Source of the DNA: Acidimicrobiales bacterium
Lineage (GTDB): Bacteria; Actinomycetota; Acidimicrobiia; Acidimicrobiales; Acidimicrobilacustridaceae
Assembly: GCA_025455885.1 (NCBI GenBank)
Contig: JALOLR010000022.1
Span: 1-33,581 of the forward strand
Length of the DNA stretch: 33,581 bases
Direction of reading: 5' to 3'
Positions 12,751 to 24,037 of this stretch are shown here, piece after piece. The position numbers were made by a program, and so were the translations under genes. Below the pieces are notes generated by a model. That model saw nothing but the letters and a program-made list of their open reading frames with translations, had not been told where the DNA came from and searched no databases. Positions within the stretch are counted from its first letter, which is position 1; every line of letters begins with the position of its first letter.

Positions 12751-14094
12751 ATGAGCCTCCGCTTCGGCACCGACGGCGTCCGCGGCCCCGCCGACGAGCT
12801 CGACGACCGATCGGTGGCCGCCCTCGGCGCGGCTGCCGCCGAGGTGCTCGGCGGGTCCGACGGGTTCGTGATCGGGCGCGACACGCGGCGATCCGGCCCC
12901 CGCCTGGCCGCGGCGCTGGCGAGCGGCCTGGCGTCCGGGGGTGCCCGCCCGCAGGTCCTGGGTGTGGCGCCCACCCCCGCCGTGGCGTGGGTGTCGGCCG
13001 AACGGGGCATCCCCGGCGCCGTCATCTCGGCCAGCCACAACCCGTGGAGCGACAACGGCATCAAGTTCTTCGCCGCCGGCGGCCGCAAGCTCCCGGTGGC
13101 CACCGAACGTCGCCTCGAGGAGGCGCTCGACCGCCACCTCGCCGCGCCCCCCATGGCGCCCGTCGCCGGCGCCGGCGGGGCGCTGACCGGGTCGGGACCG
13201 GTCGACGAGGACGCGCTCGGTCGGTGGGTCGACGCCGTCGTGGCGTCGATCGGGGAGCGGCGCCTCGACGGTCTGCACGTCGTCGTCGACTGCGCCAACG
13301 GCGCGGCGTCGCACCTCGCACCGGAGGCCCTGCGCCGCCTCGGGGCCGAGGTCACGGTGCTGCACGCCGATCCCGACGGCACCAACATCAACGACGGGTG
13401 CGGCTCGACCCACCCCGCGTCGCTCCAGGCGGCGGTGGTGGCCGCGGGCGCCCATGCGGGGATCGCCTTCGACGGTGACGCCGACCGGCTGCTGGCCGTC
13501 GACGAGCTGGGCGGCCTCGTGGACGGCGACCAGCTCATCGCCCTGTGCGCGGTGGACCGGCGCGAGCGGGGCCTGCTGGCCGACGACCATGTCGTGGTGA
13601 CGGTGATGACCAACCTCGGGTTCCGCCTCGCCATGGCCGAGGCCGGCATCACCGTGGTCGACACGCCGGTCGGCGATCGCCACGTCCTCGAGGCGCTCGC
13701 CGAGGGCGGCTGGTCGCTCGGCGGTGAGCAGTCCGGTCACATCGTGTTCGCCGACCTGGCCACGACCGGCGACGGCCTGCTCTCCGCGGTCCAGGTGCTC
13801 GACCTCGTGCACCGCGCCCCGGCGCCGTTCTCGGCGCTCGCCCGGGCGGCGATGACCAGGCTCCCCCAGGTCCTGGTCAACGTCACGGTCGCCGAACGGC
13901 GCCCCGACCTGGTGGCGGACCTCTCCGAGGCGATCGCCGAGGAGGAGCGCCGGCTGGGACCGACGGGCCGGGTGCTCATCCGACCCAGCGGCACCGAGCC
14001 GCTCGTGCGGGTCATGGTGGAGGCCGCCACGGAGGCCGATGCGCGGGCCGTCGCCGACCGCCTGGCCGAGGCCGTACGGGCGGCAGGCGCCTGA
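12751..14094 (+). CDS. glmM: Phosphoglucosamine mutase
   Basis: This enzyme interconverts glucosamine-6-phosphate and glucosamine-1-phosphate on the way to UDP-GlcNAc and peptidoglycan. It has 447 residues. RFGTDGVRG opens the protein, and the phosphoserine is S95 in ISASHNPWSDNGIKFF. The metal loop is DGDADR at 241-246, GGEQSGHI binds sugar, and RPSGTEPLVRVMVEA binds phosphate. The length is standard. It follows rpsI by 25 bases with GGGAG before ATG 12751. The glmS-like gene next door would supply its substrate. Confidence 0.95.
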   Translation: MSLRFGTDGVRGPADELDDRSVAALGAAAAEVLGGSDGFVIGRDTRRSGPRLAAALASGLASGGARPQVLGVAPTPAVAWVSAERGIPGAVISASHNPWSDNGIKFFAAGGRKLPVATERRLEEALDRHLAAPPMAPVAGAGGALTGSGPVDEDALGRWVDAVVASIGERRLDGLHVVVDCANGAASHLAPEALRRLGAEVTVLHADPDGTNINDGCGSTHPASLQAAVVAAGAHAGIAFDGDADRLLAVDELGGLVDGDQLIALCAVDRRERGLLADDHVVVTVMTNLGFRLAMAEAGITVVDTPVGDRHVLEALAEGGWSLGGEQSGHIVFADLATTGDGLLSAVQVLDLVHRAPAPFSALARAAMTRLPQVLVNVTVAERRPDLVADLSEAIAEEERRLGPTGRVLIRPSGTEPLVRVMVEAATEADARAVADRLAEAVRAAGA

Positions 14095-14155: not shown

Positions 14156-14231
14156 CGGCCGGTCCGAGTCGCCGTCCGGTCGACGGATGACCGATCCGCC
14201 CACCGGACCCAACCGAGGAGGCCGTCGGCTC

Positions 14232-17200
14232 ATGTGCGGGATCATCGCCGTCGTTCGGCGGCCCTCCGAGCGTGCCGTCCCGTCGGCGGGGGAGATCGAG
14301 GACCTGCTCGCCGAGACCGCGGCGTTGCTCACCGAGGTGCTCGACGGGCCCGTCGATGCCGGCCTCCTGCCGACGGTCGCCGCCGCGGCCGCCCGGGCGG
14401 CGGCGGCGGACCGGCTGCTCGCCAGCCTCCCCGGGCTGCGGGCGATGATCGCCTCGGCGAGGCTGCGCACGGCGGTCGAGAGCCTCTCCCACGACCTCGA
14501 CGGGAAGGTCCGCGCCTTCGAGCGTCAGCTGGACGAGGGGTCGGTGGCCGGCAGGGACCTCGAGTCTCTCAACGCCGCGCTCATCGAGTTGAAGGACGCC
14601 GTCTGGGGGTTGCGCCGCGATCGTCTCCGGGCTGCCGTCGAGGTCGAGGCCCTGGCCGGCCCGGGCGCGGGACCGGCGGCCCTCGCCGTCCACCTCTCCG
14701 TCCACCAGGCCCTCTCGGCGATCGACCGGCTCGAGGTCCGCGGCCGGGACTCGGCGGGCCTCCACCTGCTGGTGCGCGACCATGGGCTCGACCTCCACGC
14801 CCCGGCCATCCGGGCGGCGTTGGCGGAGCGGGCCGCCGACCCGCTGTTCTCCTCGATGGCCGTGCGGACCCCCGAGGGCCACCTGAGCTTCGTGTACAAG
14901 GCGGCGGCCGAGATCGGCGAGCTGGGCGACAACACCCGGCACCTGCGGGCCGCGATCACCGCGGACGCCCTGTTGCACCAGGCGCTCGGCAACGACGCCG
15001 CGCAGGCGGTGGTGCTCGGCCACACCCGGTGGGCGAGCGTCGGGATCGTCTCCGAGCCCAATGCCCATCCGCTCAACTCCGATCAGCTCGACGGCGCCCG
15101 GGGCGCCTACGTCACCGCCGTGCTGAACGGCGACGTCGACAACTTCGCCGACCTGAAGGTCACCGACGGCCTGTCCATCGCGCCCGAGATCACGACCGAC
15201 GCCAAGGTCATCCCCACCCTCACCAGCCGGTCGTTGTCCGAGGGAGGCGGCACGGGTGAGGCGTTCCGGCGGACGGTCAACCGCCTCGAGGGGTCGGTGG
15301 CCATCGCCGCCAACGTCGCCGACGAGCCCGCCGACCTCCTGCTGGCGCTACGGGGGAGCGGCCAGGCCCTCTACATCGGCCTCGCCGAGGACGCCTACGT
15401 CGTGGCCAGCGAGCCCTACGGCGTCGTCGAGGAGACCGACACCTACCTGCGCCTCGACGGCGAGGTGCCCGTCGACCCGGACAACCCCGCCAGCGTGGGC
15501 CAGGTCGTGGTGCTGCGCGGCGATGCGGCCGGCCTCGTCGAGGGGATCGAGCGCCAGGCCTACGACGCCACCCCGCTCCCCGTGGCCGCGGCCGACCTGG
15601 CCGTCGCCGAGATCACCACGCGCGACATCGACCGGGGCGATGCCCCGCACTACCTCCTGAAGGAGATCGGCGAAGCGCCGGCGTCGTTCCGCAAGACCCT
15701 GCGGGGCAAGCTCGTCGACGGCCCCGACGGGCCGACCGTGACGCTCGGCCCCGACGTGGTGCCGCCGGCGGTCCGCGACGGCCTGCGCGACGGTTCGCTC
15801 ACCCGTCTGCTCGTCATCGGTCAGGGCACGGCCGCCGTGGCCGGACGGTCGCTCGTGGAGGCGATGGCCGCGCTGGCGCCGGGGACGGCGGTGCGGACCG
15901 AGGCCGTCCTGGCCACCGAGCTGTCGGGCTTCGACCTGCGTGACGACATGAGCGACACGCTCGTCGTCGCGGTCAGCCAGAGCGGGACGACCACCGACAC
16001 CAACCGCACCGTCGACCTCGTTCGGGCGCGTGGAGCGAGGGTCATCGCGGTCGTCAACCGGCGCGGGAGCGACCTCACCGACCGCGCCGACGGGGTGCTC
16101 TACACCTCCGACGGTCGTGACGTGGAGATGAGCGTGGCCTCGACGAAGGCCTTCTACGCCCAGATCGCCGCCTGCCACCTCCTCGCCGTCGACCTCGCCG
16201 CGGTGCTCGCCGGGTCGGACCCGGCAACGGCGGCGGCCCGGGCCGAGGTGCTCGACGGACTGCGGGCCCTGCCCGAGGCGATGGAGCAGGTGATGGCGCT
16301 GCGCCCCGAGATCGCCCGGGCCGCCCACGACCTCGCCCCGTCCCGGCGCTACTGGGCGGTGGTCGGCAACGGCGTGAACCGCATCGCCGCGGAGGAGGTG
16401 CGGATCAAGCTCAGCGAGCTCTGCTACAAGGCCATCGCCTGCGACGGCACGGAGGACAAGAAGCACATCGACCTCTCCTCCGAACCGCTCATCCTCGTGT
16501 GCGCGGCCGGGCTGCAGGGCTCCAACGTCGACGACGTGGCCAAGGAGGTCGCCATCTACCGGGCGCACAAGGCGGCGCCGGTCGTCGTCGCCACCGAGGG
16601 GGAGGCGAGGTTCTCCGCCGCCCTCCACGTCATCGCTGTGCCGGTGGTGCACCCGCGCCTGGCGTTCGTCCTCTCGGCGATGGTCGGCCACCTCTTCGGC
16701 TACGAGGCCGCCCTGGCCGTCGATGCCCAGGCCCGCCCGCTGCGCGAGGCGCGCGCCGCCATCGACGAGGCCGCCGCGGCGGGCCGCTCGGGTGAGGCCG
16801 CGCTGCGCGAGCTGCGCGAGCCGTTCGCGGCGGCTGCGGCCCGCTTCTTCGACGGGCTGCGCGCCGGGAGCTACGACGGGCACCTCGAGGCGTCCACCGC
16901 CGTCCGGCTGGCGTCGACGTGGCGCTTCGCCCTCGAGATGGTGCCGCTCGAGGCCTACCAGGTGGAGCACGGCAAGGTCGGCACGCCCGGCGTGGTGCTC
17001 GAGGACCTCGCCATCGCCCTGAGCCGGGCCATCGACGAGCTGACCCGCCCCATCGACGCCATCAAGCACCAGGCCAAGACGGTGACGGTGGGCATCTCGC
17101 GCAGCGACGAGACGCTGCTGCAGGTCCCGCTGGTGCGCGAGGTCCTGGCCGCGGGGGCCGCTCGTGACCGGCTCACCTACTCGACGCTACGCACCCTGAG

Positions 17201-17687
17201 CGCCCTCGGCCCGATGGTGGCCGAGGTGCGGGGGTACACCCGCTATGCGATCGAGGGCCGGGTGGAGGTGGGCGACGTGGCCGACGAGGCCACCGTCGTG
17301 GTGGTCGATCGGGGCGGCATCGGCCGAGACCTGCGCAGCCGCACGGAGCACGACCCGCGTCTGCGGGGCACGAAGCGCTGGGTGGCCGTCGAGCGGACGG
17401 TGCTGGTGGCCCGGGGCCGCAGCGACGGCCGCACCGTGATCATCGTGCCCGAGGTGAAGGACGGTCAGCCCACCGGTCTGGCCCTCCTCCACGTCGACCT
17501 GCGTGACGACCTCTCGCTCCCGGCCCTGCGGGCGGTGCTGCTCGGCTACCGCAACCGGTACGCAGCGATCAAGAACGCGGTCACCGAGACCGAGCCCGTC
17601 TTCCGCGACGACCTGCTCACCACGGTCGACGTCGTCGACCTCATGACCGAGCCGGTCAACGACCTGGCGGATCGCTGGCGCTCGTGA
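14232..17687 (+). CDS. Oversized GlmS-like glutamine-fructose-6-phosphate aminotransferase
   Basis: The product is 1151 residues, against about 610 for ordinary GlmS, which makes glucosamine-6-phosphate from fructose-6-phosphate and glutamine. ATG 14232 (GAGGAGG at 14215-14221) is chosen because it puts the catalytic cysteine at residue 2 (MCGIIAVV); the upstream ATG 14187 would bury it. Glutaminase motifs then resume at RLEVRGRDSAG (166-176), HTRWAS (264-269) and LNGDVDN (298-304), leaving an about 140-residue helical insertion. SIS domain 1 has SQSGTTTDT (582-590) and SVASTKAF (634-641). SIS domain 2 has SELCYKA (728-734) and TEDKKH (740-745). AKTVTV with K949 matches the catalytic C-tail where normal GlmS ends, yet 202 residues follow. 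Key residues are kept, so activity is likely; the added parts have no known function to me. Confidence 0.85.
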   Translation: MCGIIAVVRRPSERAVPSAGEIEDLLAETAALLTEVLDGPVDAGLLPTVAAAAARAAAADRLLASLPGLRAMIASARLRTAVESLSHDLDGKVRAFERQLDEGSVAGRDLESLNAALIELKDAVWGLRRDRLRAAVEVEALAGPGAGPAALAVHLSVHQALSAIDRLEVRGRDSAGLHLLVRDHGLDLHAPAIRAALAERAADPLFSSMAVRTPEGHLSFVYKAAAEIGELGDNTRHLRAAITADALLHQALGNDAAQAVVLGHTRWASVGIVSEPNAHPLNSDQLDGARGAYVTAVLNGDVDNFADLKVTDGLSIAPEITTDAKVIPTLTSRSLSEGGGTGEAFRRTVNRLEGSVAIAANVADEPADLLLALRGSGQALYIGLAEDAYVVASEPYGVVEETDTYLRLDGEVPVDPDNPASVGQVVVLRGDAAGLVEGIERQAYDATPLPVAAADLAVAEITTRDIDRGDAPHYLLKEIGEAPASFRKTLRGKLVDGPDGPTVTLGPDVVPPAVRDGLRDGSLTRLLVIGQGTAAVAGRSLVEAMAALAPGTAVRTEAVLATELSGFDLRDDMSDTLVVAVSQSGTTTDTNRTVDLVRARGARVIAVVNRRGSDLTDRADGVLYTSDGRDVEMSVASTKAFYAQIAACHLLAVDLAAVLAGSDPATAAARAEVLDGLRALPEAMEQVMALRPEIARAAHDLAPSRRYWAVVGNGVNRIAAEEVRIKLSELCYKAIACDGTEDKKHIDLSSEPLILVCAAGLQGSNVDDVAKEVAIYRAHKAAPVVVATEGEARFSAALHVIAVPVVHPRLAFVLSAMVGHLFGYEAALAVDAQARPLREARAAIDEAAAAGRSGEAALRELREPFAAAAARFFDGLRAGSYDGHLEASTAVRLASTWRFALEMVPLEAYQVEHGKVGTPGVVLEDLAIALSRAIDELTRPIDAIKHQAKTVTVGISRSDETLLQVPLVREVLAAGAARDRLTYSTLRTLSALGPMVAEVRGYTRYAIEGRVEVGDVADEATVVVVDRGGIGRDLRSRTEHDPRLRGTKRWVAVERTVLVARGRSDGRTVIIVPEVKDGQPTGLALLHVDLRDDLSLPALRAVLLGYRNRYAAIKNAVTETEPVFRDDLLTTVDVVDLMTEPVNDLADRWRS

Positions 17688-19516
17688 TCGTCGGCCTCGG
17701 CGTCGACGTCGTCGACCTCGAGCGCTTCGGGGCCGTGCTGGCGCGCCGCCCCGGGGTGGCCGAGCGCCTCTTCACCGACGCCGAACGGGCCTACGCCGAA
17801 CAGGGCCGGGACCCGGTCGAGCGGCTCGCCGTCCGCTTCGCCGCCAAGGAGGCGGCCCTCAAGGCGCTCGGGGTGGGCATCGGTCCGGCCGGGTGGCACG
17901 ACGTGGAGGTGGTCCGTGGCGACGCCGGTCGACCGTCGCTGGTCCTGCGGGGCGGGGCCGCCGAGCGGGCCGAGGCGCTGGGGGTGACCGCGGTCGAGGT
18001 GACGCTCACCCACGGCGATCTCGTCGCCGCGGCGGTTGTCGTCGCTGAGCGGGCACCCGACCCCGGCCGTGGCGTCCCCGGTCCGGGGGCCGCGGCGGGG
18101 CGACCCCCCGCGCCGGTCGACCTCGGCGTGGGCCTGCCCACCGCGGGTGGACTGGTCCCGATCGTCACCCCCGCGGAGATGGGGGCCGTCGACGCCGCGG
18201 CCCCCGAGCCCGTCGACGTGCTCATCGGTCGGGCGGGGGGGGCGGTGGCGAGGGCGGCGATCTCGATGATGGGCGGCGGCTACGGACGCCGCGTGGTGAT
18301 CCTCGAGGGGAAGGGCAACAACGGCAACGACGGCCGCGAGGCCGCTCGTCGGTTGCGCCGTCTGGGGGTCCGGGTCGTCGAGCTCGACGTCGCCGAGGCG
18401 CCGGCGCAGCTCCCGCCCGCCGACCTCGTCGTCGACGCCGCCTTCGGCACGGGGTTCCGAGGCGAGTTCGCAGCCCCCACCGTCGACCCCGACACCCCCG
18501 TCCTCGCCGTCGACATCCCCTCCGGCGTCGACGGGCTCACGGGGGAGCCGAGCGAGCGGGTGCTCGCCGCCACGGCCACGGTGACCTTCGCGGCGTTGAA
18601 GCCCGGCCTCGTCGTCGCTCCCGGGGTCGACCTCGCCGGGCAGGTGGTCGTCGCCGACATCGGGCTCGACGTCAGCGGCGCCACCGCCCACCTGGTCGGG
18701 GGGGCGGCCGTGGCCGGCTGGCTGGCCGACACGGTCCCCGCGGCGCACAAGTGGCGCAGCGCCGTGTGGATCGTCGCCGGCAGTCCCGGCATGAGCGGCG
18801 CCGCCGCCCTGTGCGCAGCGGCCGCCGCCCGCAGCGGCGCCGGCTACGTACGGCTCAGCACCCCGGGCGGCCTGCCGCGGGGAGCCCCGGTGGAGGCGGT
18901 GCTCACCGATCTGCCCGGGGAGGGGTGGGCCTCGGCGGTCGTCGGCGACCTCGACCGCTTCCGGGCTCTGGTGGTCGGCAACGGCCTCGGTACGGCGGCG
19001 GGCACGATCGACGAGGTGCGCCGGCTGGTGGCCGCGGCCGCCGAGCGGGGGCTGCCGACCGTCGTCGACGCCGACGGGATCACCGCGCTCGGCCGTGACG
19101 CGGCGGGTGTCGTCGGGCCGACCACCGTCCTGACCCCCCACGACGGCGAGTTCGCCCGGTTGGCCGGGGCGCCACCGGGCCCGGACCGGGTCGAGGCCGC
19201 CCGGCGTCTCGCCTCCGACGTCGGCGCGGTCGTGCTGCTCAAGGGTCGGGCGACGGTGGTGGCTGCCCCGGACGGCGAGGTGCTGGTGAGCACCACGGGC
19301 GACCGCCGACTCGCCACCGCCGGTACCGGTGACGTGCTCGCCGGGGTCATCGGCGCCTTGTTGGCCCAGGGCCTCCCACCGCTGCGCGCCGCGGCGGCCG
19401 GAGCGTTCCTGCACGGCAGGGCGGGCGCCCTAGGCTGGCCGAGGGGCCTGGTGGCCGGGGACCTCCCGGGTGCCGTGCCCGCCGCCCTCGCCGAGGTCAC
19501 GGCGCTGGGGACCTGA
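17684..19516 (+). CDS. Fusion: holo-ACP synthase + NAD(P)HX epimerase + NAD(P)HX dehydratase
   Basis: The product is 610 residues with three domains. Residues 1 to about 120 are AcpS, which puts phosphopantetheine on acyl carrier protein: GVDVVDLERF with D8 and RFAAKEAALKALG with E56 are the metal and CoA residues. Residues of about 160-345 are the YjeF_N epimerase (NnrE) with GKGNNGNDG (209-217) and DIPSGVDG (277-284). Residues of about 350-605 are the ADP/ATP-dependent dehydratase (NnrD) with TPHDGEF and GTGDVLAG (547-554). NnrE and NnrD repair hydrated NAD(P)H. A glycine/proline/alanine-rich linker joins AcpS to NnrE. GTG 17684 overlaps the stop of the previous gene (GTGA). No stop or frameshift separates the parts. 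Confidence 0.9.
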   Translation: MIVGLGVDVVDLERFGAVLARRPGVAERLFTDAERAYAEQGRDPVERLAVRFAAKEAALKALGVGIGPAGWHDVEVVRGDAGRPSLVLRGGAAERAEALGVTAVEVTLTHGDLVAAAVVVAERAPDPGRGVPGPGAAAGRPPAPVDLGVGLPTAGGLVPIVTPAEMGAVDAAAPEPVDVLIGRAGGAVARAAISMMGGGYGRRVVILEGKGNNGNDGREAARRLRRLGVRVVELDVAEAPAQLPPADLVVDAAFGTGFRGEFAAPTVDPDTPVLAVDIPSGVDGLTGEPSERVLAATATVTFAALKPGLVVAPGVDLAGQVVVADIGLDVSGATAHLVGGAAVAGWLADTVPAAHKWRSAVWIVAGSPGMSGAAALCAAAAARSGAGYVRLSTPGGLPRGAPVEAVLTDLPGEGWASAVVGDLDRFRALVVGNGLGTAAGTIDEVRRLVAAAAERGLPTVVDADGITALGRDAAGVVGPTTVLTPHDGEFARLAGAPPGPDRVEAARRLASDVGAVVLLKGRATVVAAPDGEVLVSTTGDRRLATAGTGDVLAGVIGALLAQGLPPLRAAAAGAFLHGRAGALGWPRGLVAGDLPGAVPAALAEVTALGT

Positions 19517-19541
19517 TCCGGCTCACCGTCGAAGAGGACCG

Positions 19542-20069
19542 ATGCTTCGAGACAAGCCCGTACGTGACGTGATGGTCACCGACGTCCTGAGCTTCACCGC
19601 GGACGAGAACGTGCGCGACGCCATGCGGGACCTCGTCCGCCAGGACATCGACGGCGGTCCCGTGCTCGACGACGAGGGCAGGGTGATCGGGATGCTCTCG
19701 ACGGCCGACCTCATCGTCGAGGAGGCCCGGATCCACCTGCCCACGGTCATCACCCTGCTGGGCGGGGTGTTCGAGCTGCCGAAGTCGAAGAAGCGCTACG
19801 AGGCCGACCTGGAGAAGGCGCTCGGTGCGACGGTCGGTGAGGTGATGACCGCCGAGGTCGGCGCCACCGTCGGCCCCGACGACACCTTCGAGACGGCCGC
19901 GACGCTCATGCACGAGCACGGCCTCGATCGGTTGGCCGTCGTCGACGCCGACGGCGTGCTGGTCGGCATCATCGCCCGCGGCGACATCGTCAGGGCCATC
20001 GTCCTCGACGCCGACGTCGAGGGGTCCGACGCCGACGTCGAGGGGTCCGACGCCGACGACGCGGGCTGA
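19542..20069 (+). CDS. CBS-domain-pair protein
   Basis: This 175-residue protein has two CBS motifs, one at about residues 8-60 (VRDVMVTDVLSFTADENVRDAMRDLVRQDIDGGPVLDDEGRVIGMLSTADL) and one at about 95-155 (VGEVMTAEVGATVGPDDTF through RLAVVDADGVLVGIIARGDIVRAI). Such pairs bind adenine nucleotides and act as sensors; no catalytic domain is attached and the target is unknown. The end is a repeated acidic tail (DADVEGS twice). ATG 19542 has GAAGAGG just before it; the frame stays open upstream into the previous gene. It sits between nnr and alr, a place where I expect no fixed partner. Confidence 0.85.
   Translation: MLRDKPVRDVMVTDVLSFTADENVRDAMRDLVRQDIDGGPVLDDEGRVIGMLSTADLIVEEARIHLPTVITLLGGVFELPKSKKRYEADLEKALGATVGEVMTAEVGATVGPDDTFETAATLMHEHGLDRLAVVDADGVLVGIIARGDIVRAIVLDADVEGSDADVEGSDADDAG
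20007..20057 (+). repeat. 21-bp tandem repeat in the CBS gene tail
   Basis: Two exact 21-bp copies (20007-20027 and 20028-20048) and nine bases of a third encode DADVEGS-DADVEGS-DAD. Being a multiple of three, copy-number change would keep the frame and vary the length of the acidic tail. Confidence 0.9.
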
Positions 20070-22734: not shown

Positions 22735-23420
22735 TCGCCGGGATCGACACCGCCACCGTGCAGGTGAGCGTGGCCATCGGCGGGCACGAGGGGGTCCTGG
22801 CCTCCACGCAGTCGTGCCGGGCGCGCCAGCACGCCGAGATCCTCACCCCGGCGATCGAGTTCACGTGCCGCCAGGCCCGCATCGAGCTGTCGGAGATCAG
22901 CGTGGTCGCCGTGGACCTCGGGCCCGGCCTCTTCACGGGGCTGCGGGTCGGCGTCGCCGCCGCCAAGGCGATGGCCCACGCCCTCAACGTGCCCATGATC
23001 GGGGTGCCCAGCCTCGACCTGCTCGCCTTCCCCGTCCGGTTCACCTCCCGTCTCATCGTGGCGGCGATCGACGCCCGCCGCGGCGAGCTCTTCTACGCCT
23101 TCTACCGTCAGGTGCCCGGTGGCATCCAGCGCCTCACCGACCATCGCGTCGGGTCGCCCGAGGACCTCGCCTCGGAGCTGTTGGCCGCCAGCGAGGAGTG
23201 CCTTCTCGTCGGCGACGGCGCGGTGCGCTACCGGGAGGTCTTCGAGGGGCTGAAGAAGACCGAGATCGTCGAGGAGGGCCTCGCCTACCCGTCGGCGTCG
23301 TCACTGGTGATGCTGGCCCATGCGCGGGCGCTGCGCGAGGACTGGGTGAAGCCGTGGGACCTCCAACCCCTGTACCTGCGCCGACCCGACGCCGAGATCA
23401 ACTGGGTCACCCGGCCGTGA
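22728..23420 (+). CDS. tsaB: tRNA t6A biosynthesis protein TsaB
   Basis: The product is 230 residues from GTG 22728: VLIAGIDTATVQVSVAIGG, then VAVDLGPGLFTGLRVGVAAAKAMAHAL and IDARRGELFYAFY. These are TsaB marks; TsaB is an ASKHA-fold scaffold that dimerises with TsaD. An upstream in-frame ATG at 22689 lies inside tsaE and would add a non-conserved segment, so the GTG overlapping the tsaE stop is preferred. The TGA overlaps rimI (GTGA). Confidence 0.93.
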   Translation: MLIAGIDTATVQVSVAIGGHEGVLASTQSCRARQHAEILTPAIEFTCRQARIELSEISVVAVDLGPGLFTGLRVGVAAAKAMAHALNVPMIGVPSLDLLAFPVRFTSRLIVAAIDARRGELFYAFYRQVPGGIQRLTDHRVGSPEDLASELLAASEECLLVGDGAVRYREVFEGLKKTEIVEEGLAYPSASSLVMLAHARALREDWVKPWDLQPLYLRRPDAEINWVTRP

Positions 23421-24037
23421 CCGTCACCGGCCCGTCGGGGAACCGCGCCGCCGCCGACGTCCCGGACCGCGCGCCGGACGCGTCCGCCGGCGCGGTGGTG
23501 GTCGAATCGATGCGCCGTCGCCACCTGCGCGCCGTGCTGCGCATCGAGGGGCGCACCTCCACGACGCCGTGGTCGCTCGGTCTCTTCGTCGCCGAGCTGG
23601 GTCGCGGTGACGAGCGCGTCTACCTCGTCGCCCGGCAGGGCGGACGAGTGGTCGGGTACGCCGGCGCGCTCCTCGTGGCCGGCGAGGCCCACGTCACCAC
23701 GATCGCCGTCGACCCCGACCACCGCGGCCGAGCGATCGCCACCCGTCTCCTCTCGGCCCTGGTCCGGCGGTGCGTCGACCTCGGCGTCGGGGCGGTCACC
23801 CTCGAGGTGCGGGCGTCCAACGAGGCGGCCCTCGCTCTCTACCGCCGTTTCGGCTTCGTCCCGGCGGGGGTGCGCAAGGGCTACTACTCCAAGCCGGTCG
23901 AGGACGCCCTGGTGCTGTGGGCCCACGACGTCGCGGAGGCCGCGTATGCCGAACGCCTCGCCGACATCGACCGACGCCTCGACCCCGCCCCGCACGACGA
24001 GGGCGCGCCGACGACCCCGGAAGGACCCCGCCCGTGA
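23417..24037 (+). CDS. rimI: Ribosomal-protein-alanine N-acetyltransferase RimI-like
   Basis: The product is 206 residues: an unconserved N-terminus of about 35, then a GNAT domain (about 35-170). The GNAT domain has the acetyl-CoA loop in VDPDHRGRAIATRLL, EVRASNEAALALYRRFGFVPAGVRKGYY and a C-terminal VLWAHD. RimI acetylates the N-terminus of S18 in E. coli, and the mycobacterial enzyme has broader targets. Its place between tsaB and tsaD supports the call over a generic GNAT. The last 35 residues are a charged tail. GTG 23417 overlaps the tsaB stop. Confidence 0.9.
   Translation: MTVTGPSGNRAAADVPDRAPDASAGAVVVESMRRRHLRAVLRIEGRTSTTPWSLGLFVAELGRGDERVYLVARQGGRVVGYAGALLVAGEAHVTTIAVDPDHRGRAIATRLLSALVRRCVDLGVGAVTLEVRASNEAALALYRRFGFVPAGVRKGYYSKPVEDALVLWAHDVAEAAYAERLADIDRRLDPAPHDEGAPTTPEGPRP

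Follow-up and report, generated by a model that had tools for sequence, protein, structure and literature searches.

Can a GlmS work when about 200 residues follow its catalytic tail, and what might such an extension do? The question is raised by a stretch of 33,581 nucleotides from an Acidimicrobiales bacterium (GenBank assembly GCA_025455885.1, contig JALOLR010000022.1, positions 1 to 33,581), called the window here, in which positions 14232-17687 of the forward strand form a single frame of 1151 amino acids (aa) whose translation has no inner stop. The encoded protein is a GlmS homologue with additional domains, referred to below as the long form. This object is real, widespread and conserved. 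We lean towards the view that the long form is the working GlmS of its genome and that a sensor-like domain attached to its catalytic tail controls this tail allosterically. Judged by its conserved residues and by its taking the place of the standard gene, it very probably makes glucosamine 6-phosphate (GlcN-6-P); judged by structure models, its extension is probably regulatory.

Reading frame and domain layout

The long glmS gene lies between glmM and acpS. That it directly follows glmM, as the original prediction held, is supported by the score of the upstream neighbour, which is above its family cut-off (Table 1). An alternative ATG is located 15 codons upstream, at 14187. An N-terminal nucleophile (Ntn) glutaminase needs Cys2 at its N-terminus. 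With the start at 14232, Cys2 becomes the N-terminal nucleophile, the sequence AGGAGG stands 10 nt before the start, and 77 of 80 named loci contain a frame of more than 1050 aa that begins with [MV]CGI; 14232 is therefore the likely start. The named loci are the best 80 of 560 relatives and include Candidatus Microthrix, Aquihabitans and Ilumatobacteraceae as close relatives. Three of them (L053, L056 and L073) were not readable whole, and one of the 77 frames (L109) lacks its 3′-end. The same architecture was found in the 76 of 80 records read whole. An Rfam scan of the window gave no family at the gathering score.

The long form carries three additions, which had been described from the sequence and were confirmed here. 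Cys2 and R166 are separated by 163 residues, approximately 140 more than in E. coli GlmS, and this region is helical in the model. Another addition of approximately 100 residues (roughly 833-938) precedes the tail. After the tail, 202 residues follow K949, compared with 192-212 at the same point in the 76 named proteins read whole, and 198 of these residues (954-1151) lie beyond the end of E. coli GlmS. A tail lysine near the chain end, the usual GlmS feature, is thus not seen in the window protein. Pfam detected GATase_6 (258-394) and only one SIS domain (525-653); both predicted SIS halves were confirmed by the structural alignment to 2zj3 (359 of 365 residues, 2.3 Å).

The window protein scored 219.6 bits against TIGR01135, the NCBIfam equivalog of glmS, below the cut-off of 418.05. 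We therefore name it a long-form GlmS variant and not a member of TIGR01135.

Catalytic residues and conservation

The residue register was taken from a profile alignment of 38 long forms, E. coli GlmS and six standard GlmS of the same order. Conservation was then read in a set of 60 proteins, consisting of 59 of the 77 named proteins and the window protein. The residues C2, R170, R266, W267, N299, G300, D323, S582, Q583, S584, T587, V635, S637, E722, K726, E729, H745, A948 and K949 were the same in 60/60, as were T950 and V953 of the tail. Arg26, Arg73, Trp74, Asn98, Gly99, Asp123, Ser347, Gln348, Ser349, Thr352, Val399 and Ser401 of E. coli GlmS all pair with identical residues in the 60 long forms. 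In the profile alignment Glu481, Lys485, Glu488 and His504 correspond to E722, K726, E729 and H745, and Lys603 corresponds to K949 by motif and structural register. The glutaminase set (Cys nucleophile, Arg26, Arg73, Trp74, Asn98, Gly99 and Asp123) and the isomerase set (Glu481, Lys485, Glu488, His504 and Lys603) are therefore complete. For most of the other aligned residues (Arg26, Arg73, Trp74, Asn98, Gly99, Asp123 and others) we assume the roles usually given to them in E. coli GlmS. Thr76 of E. coli GlmS is replaced by Ser. The catalytic residues of GlmS named in PMC9272926 are Cys1, Glu488, His504 and Lys603. The retention of the GlmS catalytic residues, together with the predicted fold, bears out the first assignment of the protein as a GlmS-type enzyme.

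Conservation in the 38 long forms peaked in the block 941-960 around the tail, the highest of seven, with 15 of 20 positions invariant, which argues that the long form is not a product of chance. At the 85% level, block 11-160 was the lowest (16%), and the extension (961-1151) reached 35%. Strict invariance was low in both (6/150 in 11-160 and 5/191 in 961-1151), the latter value being depressed in part by one member (L021) cut at residue 1020. Separate alignments of the extension and of the N-terminal part, each with 38 relatives and the window protein and leaving out the cut L109, had mean column identities of 67% and 46%, respectively. Across the 60 sequences, the invariant polar residues of the extension are R957, R978, R1004, Y1005, D1026, R1037, K1048, D1065, R1067, R1109 and E1119.

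Predicted structure of the whole protein

AlphaFold2 was run on the window protein with 59 relatives. The full model had a predicted local distance difference test (pLDDT) score of 88.8 and a predicted template modelling (pTM) score of 0.79, with pLDDT below 50 at 268-272 and 948-957. Its best structural matches were human GFAT-1 and E. coli GlmS, both with Z of approximately 42. For E. coli 1jxa, 592 of 608 residues were aligned (Z 41.9, root mean square deviation 4.7), placing model residues 2-954 on 1-608. Of the E. coli glutaminase domain (1xff), 234 of 239 residues could be aligned with model residues 2-462 at 1.9 Å, and the isomerase domain of human GFAT-1 (2zj3) covered model residues 467-956.

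The last aligned pair is model residue 954 on E. coli residue 608. Since K949 stands as far before this pair as Lys603 and falls on it, the tail runs in register with the E. coli catalytic tail. The original prediction that a continuing chain must change the tail geometry was not upheld, as the model tail superposes on that of E. coli; the difference is that it forms an internal loop and not a free end. In the model the tail loop is bounded by one helix that ends at 945 and another that begins at 954, so that it is predicted to be pinned at both ends by accessory structure. The low confidence of the loop is as would be expected of a mobile tail.

Replacement of the standard GlmS across genomes

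The genome of the window is 3.29 Mb in 33 contigs and is rated 100% complete. No other glmS had been seen in the window, and the whole-genome search extended this result: a second glmS, standard or long, was not found. A second match in the same genome (C17:76007) was rejected as GlmS, being PurF by inspection, and one weak NagB match remained below the cut-off.

An even draw of 246 genomes from the class, each at least 90% complete, contained 110 with the long form, 129 with a GlmS above the family cut-off, 7 with neither and 0 with both; none of the 110 long-form genomes passed TIGR01135, and the passing genomes were the 129 others. The long-form scan scored two candidates per genome, and the exclusion rests on it and the standard-GlmS scan together. 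The genomes with neither were G020, G106, G163, G179, G183, G189 and G195, of which G183 and G195 contained fragments of the standard gene. The 50 families with a call were uniform, 25 being long and 25 standard; as members of a family are not independent samples, no weight is placed on a hypergeometric figure for the exclusion. In the nearest 61 genomes, where up to 11 candidates were scored in each, 52 had the long form, 6 the standard type, 3 no match and 0 both. Two other classes (22 genomes) gave 6 long, 16 standard-type and 0 with both, and single families were mixed there.

The extension was found in 41 of 396 genomes drawn from the phylum, 32 inside the class, 7 outside and 2 by chance. 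These 2 were weak matches in G179 and G511 (E approximately 1e-4), which were methylmalonyl-CoA mutase by inspection and were dropped. The other 39 matches belonged to frames of the long form or to fragments of such frames that had been cut or split; within this draw no extension was seen outside a long GlmS. A plasmid collection gave no match, viral contigs gave no relative, and viral structures gave nothing at E <= 0.001.

GlmM and AcpS/Nnr flanked 5 of the 6 standard loci fetched. For 98 of 100 long loci (L023-L042 and L051-L130) the sequence retrieved contained at least one of the two; contig ends truncate many of these loci. Long and standard glmS thus usually share one site, glmM-glmS-acpS. 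The simplest reading is that one form replaced the other, largely at this site, and on this ground we argue that the two forms do the same job. A GlmM tree of 63 rows, built for timing the swap, had poor resolution, with 24 of 58 inner branches left open and 5 changes required for the 6 standard-GlmS rows. Judged by this tree, the window organism probably lies near Candidatus Microthrix.

Two further loci show irregular forms of the gene. In L039 (G047:C1:1179749-1183184) the long glmS is spread over two frames that overlap, the break falling close to residue 750 within the second SIS half; this is either an assembly indel or a broken gene. In L165 (G272:C27:189768-193721) the match falls into five pieces spanning approximately 3.95 kb and contains one in-frame TAG; this copy may be damaged or enlarged still further.

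The C-terminal extension and the N-terminal insert

The extension was modelled alone from 39 sequences with high confidence (pLDDT 93.0, pTM 0.89). The best Foldseek matches were 7jsr from M. smegmatis, a glutamate dehydrogenase of 180 kDa (probability 0.99, E 6.6e-3), PDE6 and the GAF domain of PtsP. A second aligner also placed 7jsr at the top (chain residues 174-358, Z 8.7, 160 residues aligned, 4.5 Å). Among the 50 matches listed, it was followed by the Lcd1 GAF domain with cyclic adenosine monophosphate (cAMP), the PtsP GAF domain, free methionine sulfoxide reductase and Cache/PAS receptor domains, with Z of 5.7-7.1. The models therefore point to a GAF/PAS-like fold, which is to be taken as a lead and not as proof.

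Separate sequence searches of the extension and of the N-terminal insert, the check proposed with the original prediction, returned nothing credible for either. For the extension, 11 Pfam families were listed, each by at most 5 of the 39 members (MMR_HSR1, best E-value 0.078), and the best single value (0.0046) came from one member. Against PDB sequences, the best match was EngA (0.41), followed among others by phosphoribosyl pyrophosphate (PRPP) synthase (1.2). The N-terminal helical region, also searched with 39 members, matched 25 Pfam families with one member each (best HsbA, 0.0064), and its best PDB sequence was a designed coiled coil (0.011); neither is a credible match. A comparison of the extension with large glutamate dehydrogenase (L-GDH) frames of two relatives found nothing, but with truncated loci and spurious sequences among its three frames it was no proper test.

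GlmU in the same order

The GlmU of the window genome (C10:74792-75850; L170:1486-2592) is 368 aa long. It matches TIGR01173 over profile positions 2-344 of 452 and lacks the following stretch, which is present in ten aligned full-length proteins. This stretch presumably holds the acetyltransferase active site. GlmU was then compared in 80 genomes of known GlmS type (40 long and 40 standard; match E <= 1e-40). In the order of the window, 44 of 52 genomes had a GlmU match (27/32 long and 17/20 standard), and all 44 matches ended at profile positions 330-362 of 452. In other orders, 27 of 28 (7/8 long and 20/20 standard) reached 436-452, the exception (G068) being at a contig end. Of these proteins only the GlmU of the window genome was aligned; some of the 44 frames exceed their match, and two read through a stop. 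The acetyltransferase half of GlmU thus seems to be missing throughout the sampled order, and the short GlmU looks like an order trait that is independent of GlmS type. A single literature search on GlcN-1-P acetylation in this order gave no lead among the papers listed.

Proposed mechanism and its alternatives

If the long form works as we suppose, Cys2 would hydrolyse glutamine, the ammonia would pass to the isomerase site, and E729, H745 and K949 would make GlcN-6-P. In E. coli GlmS the counterpart of H745 is supplied by the partner subunit. The catalytic tail would be an internal loop between the helical insertion (approximately 833-938) and the GAF/PAS-like domain (954-1151). A small molecule or partner bound by this domain would alter the way in which the tail covers the sugar site and ammonia channel, and such a setting of the tail would make the enzyme allosteric. 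Catalysis, sensing and tail gating are thus what we infer from the conserved residues, the replacement of the standard gene and the predicted folds. A bolder version, which we put forward tentatively and think may well be wrong, is that a metabolite sensor is wired to the C-tail, so that its ligand moves the K949 loop in or out of the isomerase site and gates carbon into cell-wall amino sugars, this form having replaced the standard enzyme wholesale in part of the actinobacteria.

According to PMC8041777, the C-tail of E. coli GlmS is held by an Arg331-Glu608 pair. Position 331 is variable in the long form (Arg in 6/60; Asp568 in the window protein) and position 608 is Gly954 in 60/60, where the chain continues. 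The E. coli lock cannot form in the window protein, and a different hold on the tail is therefore likely in the long form, judging from these positions.

Several results weigh against the explanation that we favour. No Foldseek match of the extension reached E <= 0.001. Its Z scores mostly stayed below 8, a range in which only a common arrangement may be shared, and one match listed exceeded this value. The 11 Pfam families listed at E <= 1 for the 39 members included no GAF or PAS family, and the 18 PDB sequences at E <= 10 included no L-GDH or GAF protein except miRFP670nano (E 0.9), which we take to be a cyanobacteriochrome derivative. With its pLDDT below 50, the tail loop is not confidently predicted to sit in the active site. 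Some residues differ invariably from E. coli GlmS, with Gln in place of Cys300, Ala in place of Ser303 and Thr in place of Glu351, and His77 is replaced by either Val or Ile. Finally, the separation of the two forms is not complete. G311 (6.5 Mb, 5% contamination), the sole exception seen, has both, with the standard glmS in a glmM-glmS-acpS-alr site and the long form on another contig, where neither glmM nor acpS was seen on the fetched stretch (L154 and L155). This pair may reflect either a real second copy or a mixed assembly. The long gene is likewise not beside glmM or acpS in G376 and G429 (L157 and L158, with L154 for G311), both of which lie outside the class.

A purely structural role of the additions is possible, and it is the alternative that we take most seriously, although we consider it rather unlikely. 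The three additions would then build a different oligomer and the GAF/PAS-like domain would bind no ligand. Two of the three are helical, the accessory domains of large glutamate dehydrogenases build the oligomer and may be an analogous case, and the Z scores obtained here cannot separate a sensor from an interface domain. On the other hand, the invariant polar residues of the extension would suit a binding or catalytic pocket. The original prediction had offered two roles for the extra domain. The regulatory one fits the predicted GAF/PAS-like fold, UDP-GlcNAc being no more than a candidate ligand; the other, a second activity, does not fare well. The extension could be a second catalytic domain, for example the GlcN acetyltransferase apparently missing from the short GlmU, and its invariant charged residues would agree with this, as would the fact that the GlmU of this genome stops short of the region with the acetyltransferase active site, so that the activity must come from elsewhere. 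Yet the short GlmU does not follow GlmS type, which speaks against a link between the two, and no acetyltransferase, whether of GNAT or left-handed beta-helix fold, was present among the 50 matches listed in each fold search, nor was one among the 11 Pfam families of the 39 members; a fold missing from these lists is not excluded by that. We regard this explanation as very improbable.

It is also improbable that the long form is a specialised GlmS-like enzyme for another amino sugar and not the housekeeping GlmS. Its score far under the equivalog cut-off and the residue changes near the active sites listed above would be expected of such an enzyme, but it is the sole candidate in its genome, lies between glmM and acpS like a standard glmS, and never occurs together with the standard gene in the genomes drawn from the class. 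For an artefact in which a fused frame or a misassembly had linked glmS with a gene unrelated to it, no supporting evidence was found. The occurrence of one architecture in 76 of 80 named records and of the long form in 110 of 246 class genomes, as well as the fact that no extension was seen outside a long GlmS among the phylum genomes drawn, refute this reading by conservation, and we give it practically no weight. The reading that we prefer thus remains that of a working GlmS with a tail tethered to a sensor-like domain.

Features and neighbouring genes of the window

The coordinates of the long form, its parts and its two neighbours are collected in Table 1. In the downstream gene, AcpS accounts for residues 1-123 and is joined to an NAD(P)H-hydrate dehydratase that resembles YjeF/NnrD; for the epimerase (YjeF_N), the best stretch spans only profile positions 94-169 of 169. 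A protein with a CBS-domain pair is encoded at 19470-20066, between the acpS fusion and alr. A 407-aa protein at 22814-24034 has a RimI-type acetyltransferase domain at 237-367. Most of its first 236 residues had no family match at E 1e-5, and its N-terminal part may be TsaB, judging from its position between tsaE and tsaD.

Table 1. Coordinates of the long-form GlmS, its regions and the adjacent genes in the window.
Feature	Position	Strand	Evidence
Long-form GlmS	14232..17687	+	1151 aa, whole coding sequence including stop
First strand with catalytic Cys2, residues 1-9	14232..14258	+	Invariant MCGI; Cys2 60/60; strand 3-9 in model
Helical region from first strand to RLEVRG, residues 10-165	14259..14726	+	Helices in model; no known family
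Remaining glutaminase (Ntn GATase) domain, residues 166 to ~461	14727..15614	+	GATase_6 258-394; 1xff structural alignment
Isomerase domain, two SIS halves, residues 467 to ~831, with E722, K726, E729, H745	15630..16724	+	Pfam, structural alignment, conservation
Second helical insertion, last isomerase helix to tail, ~833-938	16728..17045	+	Helices in model; no E. coli GlmS counterpart
Catalytic tail RPIDAIKHQAKTVTV with K949, residues 939-953	17046..17090	+	A948, K949, T950, V953 60/60; aligned to E. coli C-tail; pLDDT <50 at 948-957
C-terminal extension, GAF/PAS-like predicted domain and C-terminal helices, residues 954-1151	17091..17684	+	Separate model; structural matches
glmM, phosphoglucosamine mutase, immediate upstream gene	12751..14094	+	TIGR01455 485.6 bits, cut-off 447.55
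acpS-NAD(P)H-hydrate dehydratase fusion, next gene downstream	17684..19516	+	GTG start overlapping glmS stop

Comparison with known systems and significance

The long form shares with standard GlmS and GFAT (E. coli 1jxa and human GFAT-1) the order of glutaminase and two SIS domains, the catalytic residues and the predicted fold. The standard tail AKSVTVE resembles the long-form AKTVTV, and the usual gene context, glmM-glmS-acpS, is the same. It differs in the helical insert after Cys2, the helical insert before the tail, the domain after the tail, the score below the TIGR01135 cut-off, and its length, 1114-1199 aa in a set of whole long forms, compared with 589-716 aa given for known enzymes in PMC9272926. 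The long form is a variant of GlmS that is very likely functional, and its core chemistry is well known. Neither an account of this architecture nor an already characterised subfamily was found in the open papers searched, subscription papers being largely outside the scope.

The best structural match of the extension belongs to a different enzyme, L-GDH180 of Mycobacterium smegmatis, in which the accessory segment is N-terminal and which is absent from the PDB matches of the extension profile at E <= 10. We infer that 7jsr residues 174-358 are the PAS-type region of L-GDH180, where sensing by the PAS domain is likewise a proposal. GAF, PAS and Cache sensors, such as the Lcd1 GAF domain with cAMP (5w10), the PtsP GAF domain (3ci6) and free methionine sulfoxide reductase (3mmh), have an antiparallel sheet flanked by helices, as does the predicted extension (Z 6.7-7.1 over 80-103 residues). 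These scores are modest, Pfam gave no match, and the C-terminal helices (model residues above 138 of 198) were not covered by most of the matches listed.

GlmS controls the entry to uridine diphosphate N-acetylglucosamine (UDP-GlcNAc) and peptidoglycan synthesis. In the model bacteria covered by the literature found, control is exerted through RNA or through partner proteins, examples being GlmY/GlmZ with RapZ, the glmS ribozyme and GlmR. In eukaryotic feedback, UDP-GlcNAc binds the isomerase domain and acts via the interdomain linker (PMC8041777). A sensor that gates the tail would, if true, be an allosteric feedback unlike the eukaryotic one. If the long form is active, the GlmS catalytic tail tolerates the state of an internal loop, which would bear on the mechanism and on inhibitor design. 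The long form, present in many environmental actinobacteria, is almost twice the usual GlmS size, and its predicted structure suggests a built-in control switch. A GlmS with an attached sensor-like domain across much of an actinobacterial class would represent another solution to the control of this step, which can be tested on one purified protein.

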